The notes beneath the pieces were generated by a model, which ran no database searches, had not been told where the DNA came from, and saw only the letters and a list, made by a program, of their open reading frames with translations. From contig NZ_JARBTK010000005.1 of assembly GCF_029240215.1 (NCBI RefSeq), positions 124,015 through 188,014 on the forward strand: a stretch of DNA of 64,000 nucleotides, in the 5' to 3' direction. This DNA comes from Chryseobacterium sp. Its GTDB lineage: Bacteria > Bacteroidota > Bacteroidia > Flavobacteriales > Weeksellaceae. Each line of letters opens with the position of its first letter. Position 1 is the stretch's first letter. Made by a program: the position numbers and the translations under genes. Below, one piece after another: positions 13,406 through 24,220 of the stretch.

Positions 13406-13723
13406 GTTATTTTTATTTGAAGCAAAAGTAAACTATATGTACAAATTTTAAAATAAAAATTTAATTAAAGTTTATATTTTAAATTAAATAGCATTAATTG
13501 GTTTAAAATGTTATTTGTGTGTTGGTTTTTACTACGTGTGTGGTTGATATTTTTCATGGTCTGATTTACCTGATGAATGAGCAAAAACAAAAAAAGTTTA
13601 AAAATATTGATGTATGATAATTAATAATTCAAATATTTTTCATTCCTTTGTTGCTCGAAATAATTTTTTTTCATCATTTGTGTTTTTACCTCCTTGTAAT
13701 AATATTGCAAGGAGGTTTTGTTT
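13406..13723. other. 318-bp intergenic stretch, possible small-RNA locus
   Basis: It contains the asnB promoter on the minus strand at its left end and a plus-strand terminator at its right end. No ORF above 30 codons with a credible start is present. The middle is AT-rich and shows no other recognisable element. Confidence 0.4.
13423..13430 (-). promoter_or_regulatory. -7 promoter box (TACTTTTG) of asnB
   Basis: The minus-strand sequence TACTTTTG lies 17 nt before the asnB ATG. No clear TTTG -33 element was seen at the expected 19-23 nt distance, so this is a moderate call. Confidence 0.4.
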
Positions 13724-20547: not shown

Positions 20548-22278
20548 ATGTTTAAAAAGACGTTGAATTTTAGGTTGAGAAAAATTGTTCTTTATTCTCT
20601 TATTTCATGTATTTTATTAATACAGATTACCATAGCAGGTTTTTTTTATAACGAGTTTGTCAGCCGGAGAAATTTAACTTTTATCGAAAACCAGTTAAAA
20701 GAACTTCGTCAACTTGAGAATCTTACAGATGCCTCGAAAAAAGAACTTGTGAATGCACAGGTTTTTTTTCAGAAATATGTAATCAGCAATGATGATGAAT
20801 ATTTAAAATCTTACTTTAATTCTATAAACAGACTTACAAAAAAATTAGACAGTATCAATCATTTCAGATATAAAAATCCGAAACTGAAAAATATTCTGAT
20901 ATCACTTAAAAAAGATACTTTAGAAGTGAAGAATTTAAAGCTTCTTGTTGATTCGACTTCTCAATTATCAACAAATTCAAATCTCAAAATCCGTGATCAG
21001 ATGCCCAAACTCAAAAGATTTGAGTACGATTTTAACTTTGATAAATTTGAAGTACAGAAAAAGACTTACACAGATACTATAAAAAAGAAAGGATTATTCG
21101 GACGTTTGGGAGATGCAATCGCAGGAAAAGAAAACGTACGAAAAGACAGTATAGTTGTAACTGTGAAAAACGGTACAACACCCATGGCTACAAGGATGAA
21201 GACGGAATTAGACAGTGTGATGAATCTGGTTAATAATCATTATTCTAAGGAAGTTAAGAAGATACAATATAATATTATCAAAAAGCAAAATAATAGCAAC
21301 ACCAACAGTACCAATCTTTATACAACTTTTAATCATCTTTTGGTCTACAGTAATGAATTGATGAATGTTTATGAATTTGCCGTGAAAGATTCTAAAGCTG
21401 ATCTTGAAAAAGAATATGCAGACCAAAATTCGGAAAGTAATACCATCAGGATGTATCTGGTTTTGGGACTAATGATTCTGATGTTCATCGTTTCTATATT
21501 GATCATGTATTTTACGAGAATAGCATTTATTTATGAAAGAAAACTGAATGCTGCGAACAGACAGATCAAAGAAAATTTAAATTTCAAAAACAGAATTCTT
21601 GGGATGTTGAGCCACGAACTGAGGTCACCATTGAAAATCATCGGAATTTTCATCAACAGAATTAATAAGAAAACTACTGATGAAAGCATTAAAGAATATT
21701 TAAAGTCAATAAGCTTTACCAATAATACTTTGTTGATGCAGGCGAATCAGATTCTTGAATATACCAAAAATCAGCATGTTGAAAATAAATTAATCCCTGT
21801 CGTTTTTAATCTTAGCAACGAGATTGATTCAATTTTAAACTCAATAGAACCTTATATTCAGACAAGAAATAACAAATTTATCATTCATAAAAACATCAAT
21901 CCGAATCTTGTAGTGTATTCTGACAACACAAAAATCAATCAGCTTTTTATGAATATTCTTGGTAATGCTAATAAATTTACAGAAAACGGAGAGATTACCG
22001 TAAGAACTTCAGCAGAACCTGTTGATGAAAATACGGTTGCTTTGGTAACGAATATTACAGACTCAGGTGTTGGGATTTCAAAATCAGATCTAGAAAAAAT
22101 ATTTGAACCTTATTATCAGGGAGTTATTTCTGATGAGGTTGAAAATCTGGGTGCAGGTCTTGGTTTGAGCCTGTGTAAAGAACTTGTGGAACTATACTCA
22201 GGCAATATTTCGGTTGAAAGTGAGTTCAATGAAGGAACAACTGTTTCTTTTTCTCTTAATTTAAAGATCAATAAATGA
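20548..22278 (+). CDS. Membrane sensor histidine kinase
   Basis: The 576-residue protein has a first membrane helix at about residues 14-34, an extracytoplasmic region of some 260 residues without a known domain, a second helix at about 302-322, and a cytosolic kinase core. The core has MLSHELRSPLKIIGIFINRI (phosphoacceptor His), MNILGNANKFTENGEITV (N box), VTDSGVGISKSDLEKIFEPYYQG (G1) and NLGAGLGLSLCKELVELYSG (G2). It overlaps the downstream response regulator by 4 bp (ATGA), so it almost certainly phosphorylates that protein. The signal is unknown; the sensor region is rich in Asn and Lys and mostly helical. Confidence 0.9.
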   Translation: MFKKTLNFRLRKIVLYSLISCILLIQITIAGFFYNEFVSRRNLTFIENQLKELRQLENLTDASKKELVNAQVFFQKYVISNDDEYLKSYFNSINRLTKKLDSINHFRYKNPKLKNILISLKKDTLEVKNLKLLVDSTSQLSTNSNLKIRDQMPKLKRFEYDFNFDKFEVQKKTYTDTIKKKGLFGRLGDAIAGKENVRKDSIVVTVKNGTTPMATRMKTELDSVMNLVNNHYSKEVKKIQYNIIKKQNNSNTNSTNLYTTFNHLLVYSNELMNVYEFAVKDSKADLEKEYADQNSESNTIRMYLVLGLMILMFIVSILIMYFTRIAFIYERKLNAANRQIKENLNFKNRILGMLSHELRSPLKIIGIFINRINKKTTDESIKEYLKSISFTNNTLLMQANQILEYTKNQHVENKLIPVVFNLSNEIDSILNSIEPYIQTRNNKFIIHKNINPNLVVYSDNTKINQLFMNILGNANKFTENGEITVRTSAEPVDENTVALVTNITDSGVGISKSDLEKIFEPYYQGVISDEVENLGAGLGLSLCKELVELYSGNISVESEFNEGTTVSFSLNLKINK

Positions 22279-22919
22279 ATCATTTAGATAGCACTTCTGT
22301 CAACTTTCTTCTTGCGGATGATCACAGCCTCATAAGACAGGGAGTTGCATTTCTATTGGAAGATTTGTTTTTGGAGCATGTAGTTTTTCATGCTTCCAAT
22401 CTACAGCAGACACTGGAAATAATAAAAATAAACCCCATTGATATTGCCATTATTGATGCTCATTTTCCTGATGGAAATAGTCTTAATATTCTGCCGGAAA
22501 TAAAAAAAATACGTTCGGGAACGAAAATCCTTATTTTTACAGGAATTGATGAAAGTACGCATTCTCTTAAATTCATCAACGCCGGAGCAAACGGCTTTCT
22601 AAGTAAGTTGAGTGAAGAAGAAGAGATAAAAAGGGCTATTCTCAAAATAAAAGAAGAAGGAGAGTATATTTCTGCTGCAACCCAGGCTTTACTGATGAAT
22701 TCTTTTAGAGATCAAAAACTTATTAATCCCCTGTCTGTTCTAGCAGAAAGAGAATTACAGATTGCAGAGCTGTATGCTAAAGGTTATGGAAACCTTGAAA
22801 TTGCCAACCTTCTTGATCTTAAACAAAATACCGTAAGTACAATCAAAAAACGCATATTCGAAAAATTGAAAGTTGAAAATATTGTGGAACTGATTGAATT
22901 AGTTAAAGAACATCATTAA
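22275..22919 (+). CDS. LuxR/NarL-type response regulator
   Basis: The 214-residue protein has a receiver domain with the acidic pair in LLADDHSLIRQG, the phosphoacceptor Asp in IDIAIIDAHFPDG, and the conserved Lys in SKLSEEEEI. It ends in a LuxR helix-turn-helix (ERELQIAELYAKGYGNLEIANLLDLKQNTVSTIKKRIFEKL). It binds DNA once phosphorylated, very probably by the kinase encoded upstream. The 530-bp structured intergenic region directly downstream is a plausible target, but that is inference. Confidence 0.92.
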   Translation: MNHLDSTSVNFLLADDHSLIRQGVAFLLEDLFLEHVVFHASNLQQTLEIIKINPIDIAIIDAHFPDGNSLNILPEIKKIRSGTKILIFTGIDESTHSLKFINAGANGFLSKLSEEEEIKRAILKIKEEGEYISAATQALLMNSFRDQKLINPLSVLAERELQIAELYAKGYGNLEIANLLDLKQNTVSTIKKRIFEKLKVENIVELIELVKEHH

Positions 22920-22965
22920 AGTTCCTATCTGAATTTTTTCTTAATTCAAATAATCATTTTAAATT

Positions 22966-22985
22966 TTGTAGATAAATATCTACAA
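22966..22985. promoter_or_regulatory. Perfect 8-bp palindrome TTGTAGAT-N4-ATCTACAA
   Basis: Arms TTGTAGAT and ATCTACAA are exact reverse complements separated by AAAT. It lies 47 nt after the response-regulator stop and could be an operator or a weak hairpin; no T-run follows. Confidence 0.5.
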
Positions 22986-23001
22986 TCAATGCGACATTTA
23001 T

Positions 23002-23027
23002 CTATATGATTTTAAGTAATCATATAG
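23002..23027. promoter_or_regulatory. Perfect 10-bp palindrome CTATATGATT-N6-AATCATATAG
   Basis: The arms are exact reverse complements with a 6-nt spacer TTAAGT. The symmetry and spacing fit a dimeric regulator site; the neighbouring response regulator is the obvious candidate, but this is unproven. Confidence 0.5.
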
Positions 23028-23264
23028 TGATATGTTAGTATTTTTGTCTCAAGATAAATGTTACTATTTAATCTTTCATAAACATAATGATATTTTGAAA
23101 AAAAATTAATATTGAAACTGTAGAATTTTAATTTGGGGAGGTAGAAACACAAATGAAAAATACAGAGTGCTGTTTTACAAGAGTTGAAAGGCTTTGTAAA
23201 TCATACTCAAACCCTAAATGATTTAGAAGATTCTAAAAACACAACTGTTGTAATCCTTAGTATA

Positions 23265-23290
23265 GTCGCAGAGCTCTTATGCTCTGTGAC
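23265..23290 (+). promoter_or_regulatory. RNA hairpin GTCGCAGAGC / GCTCTGTGAC
   Basis: Ten paired bases (one G-U) close a 6-nt loop TCTTAT. No T-run follows, so it is a structural stem rather than a terminator. Confidence 0.6.
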
Positions 23291-23384
23291 AGATACAGGA
23301 GAAATTCAGATAGCTGAATTTTTTATTCAAATTTTCAATGATTGTCAAATAATAAACTTTACTATAATTAACCTTAATATTTTA

Positions 23385-23420
23385 AGAGCGGCTTCTGCAA
23401 AGAAGCCGCTCTGTTTTTTT
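23385..23420 (+). terminator. Strong plus-strand rho-independent terminator
   Basis: An 11-bp GC-rich stem (AGAGCGGCTTC / GAAGCCGCTCT, loop TGCAAA) is followed by GTTTTTTTA. It is about 470 nt past the response regulator stop, so it ends either a long leader or a separate small RNA. Confidence 0.85.
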
Positions 23421-23449
23421 ATCAAGTTTTATTTAAATTATAATTGCAA

Positions 23450-24220
23450 TTATTTTACAAATTTCAAAGGATATTTTACATTTTTATAATTATCAATACT
23501 TGCTTTTAAAGAGCCTACAGCCAATTCAGCTTTCAGCAACAGCGGAATATGGTTTGCATCATTTGATACCCACATTGTAACACCCTCTTTCTGTTTAAAC
23601 ACTCTTCCGCTTTTTACAGATGGAATAATTTTCAGAGCATTGATAGTTCCGAATTTTGTCTTTAAATTTTCAGTTCCTATTACTTTAAGCTGAAAAGGAA
23701 ACATCTCATCATCAATCCACACATTCATATTAAAAACAGTACCGGTCTTCAGTTCTGCGGGAGTTTTACTTCTTAAAAAATAAAAGCATGAAAGCATATC
23801 CTGAACACCTTTTACAGATTTTATGGTTTTGGAACCATTTGCAGGTGTTTTTTTATCCGTTAAAACCAAAGTATTGTTGTCGTGATTGAAAACGGTCTGC
23901 AAATGTTGAGAATAGCTTCCTTCTTTTACGTTTCTTACATAGTAACTTGGCAGCTCTGTCTGCATATTGATGTAGCTTTCATATAAATCTTCCACTTTAA
24001 AAAAAGCTTTCACTGCACCGGTTGTCTGTCCTGTCCCTTTTACATATAAGTGAGGAACGCCTTTATAGTTGGTTTTCTTTGCTGTAAGGTTTGCCGATCC
24101 TGCGGTCAGAAAACCGTAGTGAATTCGGAGTGTTAAAGATTCTCCATCATTAATATTTGTGATCTGGCTTTTACCTGAAAAGAAAACAAATATCGCTGCT
24201 ATATAAAATAATTTCTTCAT
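23450..24220 (-). CDS. DUF3108 domain secreted protein
   Basis: The 256-residue product starts with a signal peptide (MKKLFYIAAIFVFFSGKSQ). The DUF3108 hallmarks are ESLTLRIHYGFLTAGSANL near the N-terminus, YESYINMQTELPSYYVRNVKEGSY, MLSCFYFLRSK and KTKFGTINALKIIPSVKSGRVF. The domain is a periplasmic or outer-membrane-facing beta fold of unknown role; it is widespread in Bacteroidota. Its 3' end overlaps the tail of the structured region on the opposite strand. Confidence 0.85.
   Translation of the reverse strand: MKKLFYIAAIFVFFSGKSQITNINDGESLTLRIHYGFLTAGSANLTAKKTNYKGVPHLYVKGTGQTTGAVKAFFKVEDLYESYINMQTELPSYYVRNVKEGSYSQHLQTVFNHDNNTLVLTDKKTPANGSKTIKSVKGVQDMLSCFYFLRSKTPAELKTGTVFNMNVWIDDEMFPFQLKVIGTENLKTKFGTINALKIIPSVKSGRVFKQKEGVTMWVSNDANHIPLLLKAELAVGSLKASIDNYKNVKYPLKFVK

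Follow-up and report, generated by a model that had tools for sequence, protein, structure and literature searches.

A putative response-regulator-linked decoy RNA and its antisense small-RNA family in Chryseobacterium

The locus and its features

The window, a stretch of 64,000 nucleotides from a Chryseobacterium sp. genome, contained a 530-bp region bordered by a histidine kinase/response regulator pair (20548–22919) on one side and by a convergent DUF3108 gene (23450–24220) on the other. The response regulator (RR) was of the NarL/FixJ type, with both PF00072 and PF00196 above the Pfam cut-off. Its phospho-acceptor aspartate was D61, located in the stretch IIDAHFP, which was invariant in an alignment of 11 RRs. 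The RR, the RNA region, and often also DUF3108 kept the same order in relatives.

A first-pass annotation had described two palindromes, an RNA-like stem with a 6-nt loop, and a terminator with a T-run about 470 nt beyond the RR stop. All four features were located where it placed them (Table 1), with palindrome 1 within 22966–22985, the stem at 23265–23274/23281–23290, and the terminator stem at 23385–23412 followed by its T tail, 466–493 nt past the stop. That annotation had not noted the box of the promoter, the actual second operator, the repeated motif, or the antisense sRNA family.

Table 1. Coordinates of the features in the window (predicted ends where indicated).
Feature	Position	Strand	Basis
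Sensor histidine kinase, HisKA + HATPase_c, weak CHASE3-like sensor	20548–22278	+	Pfam; found linked with RR and RNA among relatives
Response regulator, receiver + LuxR/GerE (NarL/FixJ type) DNA-binding domain	22275–22919	+	Pfam; 11-homologue alignment
Putative operator 1, TGTAGATAAATATCTACA, palindrome of 18 bp centred near −75 relative to the predicted start	22967–22984	.	Sequence and comparison of relatives
Putative operator 2, core CGACATTTATCTA at 22992–23004, centred 22 bp away from operator 1; CGATATATATCTA in relatives	22989–23006	.	Comparison of relatives
Palindrome 2 of the first-pass annotation, CTATATGATT-N6-AATCATATAG	23002–23027	.	Absent from other fetched genomes, probably incidental
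Promoter box TATTTTTG (TAnnTTTG); predicted start about 23051	23039–23046	+	Relatives; consensus and −12/−5 position from PMC9723704
Putative non-coding decoy RNA of about 370 nt with both ends predicted	23051–23420	+	Fold z −5.63 against shuffles; relatives; no conserved ORF
Main site complementary to the sRNA, GGAGGTAGAAACACAAATGA, predicted to pair with TCATTTGTGTTTTTACCTCC in the 13.67-kb sRNA	23137–23156	+	Predicted decoy–sRNA duplex, −36.9 kcal/mol
Second, degenerate motif copy GATTCTAAAAACACAACTGTTG	23229–23250	+	Sequence; consensus in relatives
Hairpin module GTAT..GTCGCAGAGC-loop-GCTCTGTGAC..GATAC (the RNA-like stem)	23260–23296	+	46 copies including relatives; covariation counts
Intrinsic terminator, 12-bp stem, T7 tail	23385–23420	+	Sequence
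Antisense-sRNA family member, ends predicted, TTTTTTTTCATCATTTGTGTTTTTA directly before terminator	13653–13722	+	Motif search and terminator context

A small ORF at 23157–23384 belonged to no Pfam family and had no match in relatives, and its reading as a small protein was rejected on these grounds. No conserved ORF was found in the RNA region among the relatives. The window stretch gave nothing above the gathering threshold of Rfam 15 and nothing credible at relaxed thresholds, and the relatives and the sRNA loci likewise gave none above threshold. The first-pass annotation had likewise recognised no described RNA family here.

Operator pair, promoter geometry, and distribution

A DNA search over 59 genomes found the region in genomes of the same genus, most strongly at the first palindrome. 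Scanning with the alignment of 11 RRs identified 80 loci. Their genera included Chryseobacterium, Epilithonimonas, Kaistella, Halpernia, Soonwooa, and Moheibacter. The units compared below (72 units in 62 loci) come from the RR-linked loci plus two added loci.

TGTAGA-N6-TCTACA had a single perfect match within the window, and this operator was present at fixed spacing in the 62 loci. The relatives showed a tandem arrangement over the 62 loci and 72 units, in which a TGTAGATAAATATCTACA-like site was followed by CGAnATATATCTA at a centre-to-centre distance of 22 bp. The operator-pair pattern matched 40 of 40 genus genomes, and the reversed control gave few matches. TAnnTTTG is the box of the main flavobacterial sigma factor, at −12 to −5 (PMC9723704). 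Transcription in the window is therefore predicted to start at about 23051, which places the centres of the two operators near −75 and −53. With 66–74 nt allowed, the distance from the operator core to the box was 69–70 nt in 58 of 58 units with a complete box. Another 14 units with one deviating box base were accepted solely at 69/70, so that the box test is unbiased for the 58 only.

Two palindromic operators near the promoter had been proposed at first pass. Palindrome 1 was conserved at fixed spacing, whereas palindrome 2 was seen in no other fetched genome, both loci having it being the window's own, and it was rejected as an operator because it is not conserved. This palindrome is probably fortuitous, and the conserved second element is CGACATTTATCTA instead.

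The operator pair was not found where the RR was not found (G205, G212, G029, and eight genomes of other genera). One further genome, G027, had the operator, and its RR was present as two tblastn pieces, i.e., frameshifted. Control of the RNA by the neighbouring RR, an earlier suggestion, is probable from the comparative evidence.

The operator of Moheibacter-like and some other genomes was partly TGTCGA..TCGACA, with both arms changed, and it was followed by a gene for a GT2 glycosyltransferase. In several loci (L145, L146, L244–L251, L253, and L257) the same RR and operator pair stood directly before a GT2 (chitin-synthase-like) gene, with no RNA; these loci seem to represent a different output of one regulator. 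As no homologue of this exopolysaccharide-synthase-like gene was detected at E ≤ 1e-60 in the own genome and 11 genus genomes, the GT2 gene was rejected as a target of the regulator in Chryseobacterium.

The location of the stretch directly behind the RR gene, together with the lack of an obvious RR terminator, would also suit a long 3′ UTR of the RR mRNA whose structure is incidental. That explanation is hard to reconcile with the fixed operator/promoter geometry, with the complete tandem units of some genomes (two to four), and with units behind pheS without an RR. In G008, two tandem RNA units lie behind pheS and the RR is 690 kb away; therefore, the RNA is not merely the 3′ UTR of the RR. 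We regard the 3′ UTR as very improbable; the comparative evidence supports the independent small RNA already preferred in the first-pass annotation. Judged from sequence, the stretch is a real, independent RNA gene that is conserved well beyond the genus.

The repeated motif and the antisense sRNA family

With no prior motif supplied, overlapping 9-mers revealed the repeated motif AAAACACAAATGATGAAA in up to 55 of the 72 transcripts, against about 1–2 in shuffles. The 9-mers AACACAAAT and CACAAATGA were found in 53/72 and 52/72 transcripts, respectively, with about 1 or fewer in shuffles. The core word ACAAATGA had 104 sense and 0 antisense copies in the 72 units. The best-conserved part of the units was the repeated pairing site, present in up to 9 copies; L105, L126, and L353 were regular arrays of the motif, and it often lay between hairpin arms (L008, L009, L352). 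Its predicted unpaired probability was 0.64, compared with 0.47 for an AT-matched background.

The RNA-like stem proved to be a covarying module in many relatives. Among 46 copies of the GTCGCAGAGC/GCTCTGTGAC module, two-sided changes occurred also outside the selection core; the copies had been picked by CAGAG/CTCTG, so that the covariation is partly biased and the pairs outside the core alone count as evidence. Inside the window by itself, motif enrichment was at chance level, and the window RNA carried degenerate AAAACACAAAUGAUGAAA copies and one extended 20-nt site. The decoy claim therefore rests on the relatives and on the extended site.

Several further elements were observed among the loci. 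A TTTTTAATTACTGACCTAAGAAACAAAACGTAATTAAAAA inverted repeat was conserved just past the decoy terminator in L006, L008, L011, L013, and L015. A second decoy clade (L261, L262, L266, L274, L286, and similar loci) had an extra conserved, apparently paired domain, GTGTATGAATAACCTTA..GACTTCTT .. AAGAAGTT..GGTTA..TACA. Near position 1500 of L014, L017, and L025, a short transcript-like TTTAGAAGATTCTAAAAACACAACTGATAAAG with a terminator-like hairpin was located upstream of a zinc-ribbon protein gene (MSHGKxRxDKTCLNCGH). A minority of the RR-linked units, including L101, L103, L108_196, L109_221, and L124, had no good motif and lay upstream of a small membrane-protein ORF. In these loci (L101, L103, L108, L109, L124) a hairpin RNA module was fused 5′ of the ORF of about 150 aa, and the one tested belonged to no Pfam family.

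The motif search of the own genome led to loci with the motif in antisense preceding a terminator. TTTCATCATTTGTGTTTTT, the exact antisense of the decoy motif, immediately preceded the terminators of sRNAs that form a multi-copy family, and the member in the window sits between asnB and a PNGase F-type N-glycanase gene. A terminator started ≤8 nt after 65 of 89 distinct antisense matches; on the sense side this held for 1 of 89, and random positions gave about 2%. The flanks of the sRNA loci varied and the segment was fixed: a short 5′ part (often a hairpin) led to U-rich CAUCAUUUGUGUUUUU and then to the terminator. TAnnTTTG boxes were about fourfold enriched upstream of the sRNA loci (22 vs. 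5.3). The 20-mer TTTCATCATTTGTGTTTTTA was present in 60 of 60 genus genomes, and the antisense 19-mer in 106 of 150 genomes of the family, covering 24 of 33 sampled genera; reversed controls gave almost no matches in both searches.

Most of the other matches fell in decoy units, in isolated copies scattered over the genomes, or at the beginning of a gene with an HRDC domain that follows ssb. Conserved AAAACACAAATGATGAAA spanned the start codon of this gene in L055, L075, L083, L297, and L324, and in L047 of the own genome. Among the listed matches (E ≤ 1 or 2), the tested sRNA loci had none to FopS, for which a model was deposited in Rfam according to PMC11697453.

A motif that is dispersed through genomes and contains ATG could be a REP-like repeat, or a source of micro-ORFs from its ATGATGA, without any pairing function. 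Both are very unlikely in view of the strict bias in strand and context (104 vs. 0 and 65 vs. 1 of 89), the short and differing peptides that the motif encodes, and the small ORF of the window, which is without a match in relatives.

The window decoy and the window sRNA gave a duplex of −36.9 kcal/mol, mainly through the extended 20-nt site, in which the motif is prolonged into GGAGGU opposite ACCUCC at the base of the sRNA terminator. The duplex of transcript and sRNA segment had z < −3 in 60 of the 72 units, with a median of −5.4 over all units; the generic sRNA segment against the window decoy reached only z = −2.2. The substitution test for kept pairing was neutral, with 4.9% pair-keeping and 4.7% pair-breaking changes (wobble preservation, 185 motif copies). 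The complementarity to an sRNA pairing segment that is expected of a sponge or decoy was found, since sRNA-like loci present in multiple copies contain the exact antisense 19-mer.

Such pairing would equally suit control in the reverse direction, in which the sRNAs destabilise or mask the long RNA and the long RNA, as a leader or trans-acting RNA, has an effect of its own. Some homologous units are indeed fused 5′ of a membrane-protein ORF, but most units are without an ORF, and the most conserved part is the pairing site itself, repeated up to nine times. We consider this direction quite improbable.

The repeats may also bind an RNA-binding protein, such as the single RRM protein of the own genome, giving a strict Rsm/CsrB-type protein decoy, with the sRNAs perhaps bound by the same or another protein. 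Loop repeats under a NarL/FixJ-type regulator recall CsrB/RsmZ, and in Bacteroides the RRM protein RbpB antagonises multi-copy sRNAs (PMC11697453). However, CsrA (PF02599) was not found in the own genome (93.8% complete), while control genomes were positive, and a protein decoy would leave unexplained both the exact 19–20-nt antisense segment before the terminators of dozens of sRNA loci and the 20-nt site over which the decoy is complementary to the sRNA of the window. It is therefore an unlikely explanation. Hfq was not detected in the own genome either; given that neither protein was detectable and that the genome encodes one RRM protein, the RNA may have a protein partner.

The proposed circuit and its relation to known systems

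The operators, promoter geometry, repeats, complementarity, sRNA family, and terminators were shown computationally, and the simplest reading of the operator geometry, the repeats, and the antisense sRNAs is a titrating decoy under RR activation. Because the motif and the conserved sRNA segment are exactly complementary, the RNA is most likely an inducible multi-site decoy (sponge). Overall, we think it likely that an RR-switched multi-site RNA decoy titrates the sRNA family and thereby relieves its targets.

The phosphorylated LuxR-type RR from the upstream gene would bind the two operators, spaced by 22 bp at about −75 and −53, and would activate the TAnnTTTG promoter; we infer activation and not repression because the operators are upstream of the promoter. 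The untranslated RNA, if transcribed as predicted, would carry AAAACACAAAUGAUGAAA in one to several copies, often located in linkers or in the loops of hairpins, together with stabilising hairpins and a strong terminator. It would pair with the seed-sharing sRNAs, for example at the segment CAUCAUUUGUG, and titrate them, which would relieve their targets. These would be mRNAs with the same A-rich motif (AAACACAAATGATGAAA) around the start codon, and the HRDC-domain gene behind ssb is a plausible candidate. Since genomes lacking the RR had sRNAs too, the decoy can be no more than one layer of their control; such persistence is expected if the decoy is an added layer.

The arrangement resembles Gac/Rsm (RsmX/Y/Z under GacA; BarA/UvrY-CsrB/C) in the NarL/FixJ-type RR, in an RNA with a strong terminator and a repeated motif often in loops, in several units per genome in some species, and in an 18-bp palindromic upstream site. 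The GacA site is TGTAAG-N6-CTTACA, at −75 for rsmY, and the site here is TGTAGA-N6-TCTACA, centred at about −75 (PMC4950607). This likeness of the operators is striking, but it is no proof of homology. Differences from Gac/Rsm are the extra operator 22 bp downstream, a motif that is not GGA, the undetected CsrA, and a ligand that is apparently an sRNA family bound by base pairing. As to the NarL/FixJ-driven transcription that characterises CsrB/RsmZ, an 18-bp palindrome as candidate RR-binding site and linkage to the RR were observed. Several GGA (ANGGA) loop motifs were not found, the enriched motif being AAAACACAAATGATGAAA with no Rfam match, and CsrA/RsmA was not found in the host.

FopS/GibS of Bacteroides are multi-copy sRNAs of about 65–70 nt with one shared seed followed by a terminator, and they act at translation starts (PMC11697453). 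The sRNA partners of the window type share the FopS layout; however, FopS occurs in Bacteroidaceae, PMC11697453 describes no decoy RNA and does not contain the word 'sponge', and no Rfam match was obtained here. Rfp18 of Flavobacterium psychrophilum is a conserved flavobacterial sRNA (PMC9723704). It differs as a single structured sRNA acting on protease mRNAs, with no RR operator or repeats reported in the passages of PMC9723704 consulted. Bacterial sRNA sponges are similar in that an RNA pairs with sRNAs and titrates them, as predicted here; the difference is a dedicated, two-component-linked multi-site RNA facing a whole sRNA family. To our knowledge, described sponges mostly target one sRNA. 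A search of the open literature, which does not cover all journals, gave no publication joining a sponge RNA with an sRNA in Bacteroidota.

Post-transcriptional control in Bacteroidota is poorly known. The results point to a large sRNA family, whose segment occurs in 24 of the 33 genera sampled from the bacterial family, and since the decoy, the sRNA partners, the operator, and the regulator all have exact coordinates, the whole circuit is testable. A broader and tentative view, which we hold with somewhat less than even confidence, is that Weeksellaceae may possess an RNA-only Gac/Rsm-like global switch, in which two-component-controlled decoys would buffer a large family of seed-sharing sRNAs that target A-rich translation starts. 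This regulator and its operator stand before the exopolysaccharide-synthase-like gene in some lineages, which suggests that a post-transcriptional output has replaced a direct one. If true, the finding would represent convergence on the Gac/Rsm design, with the same regulator type, a similar 18-bp site, and a repeat RNA, but with a different molecular partner.
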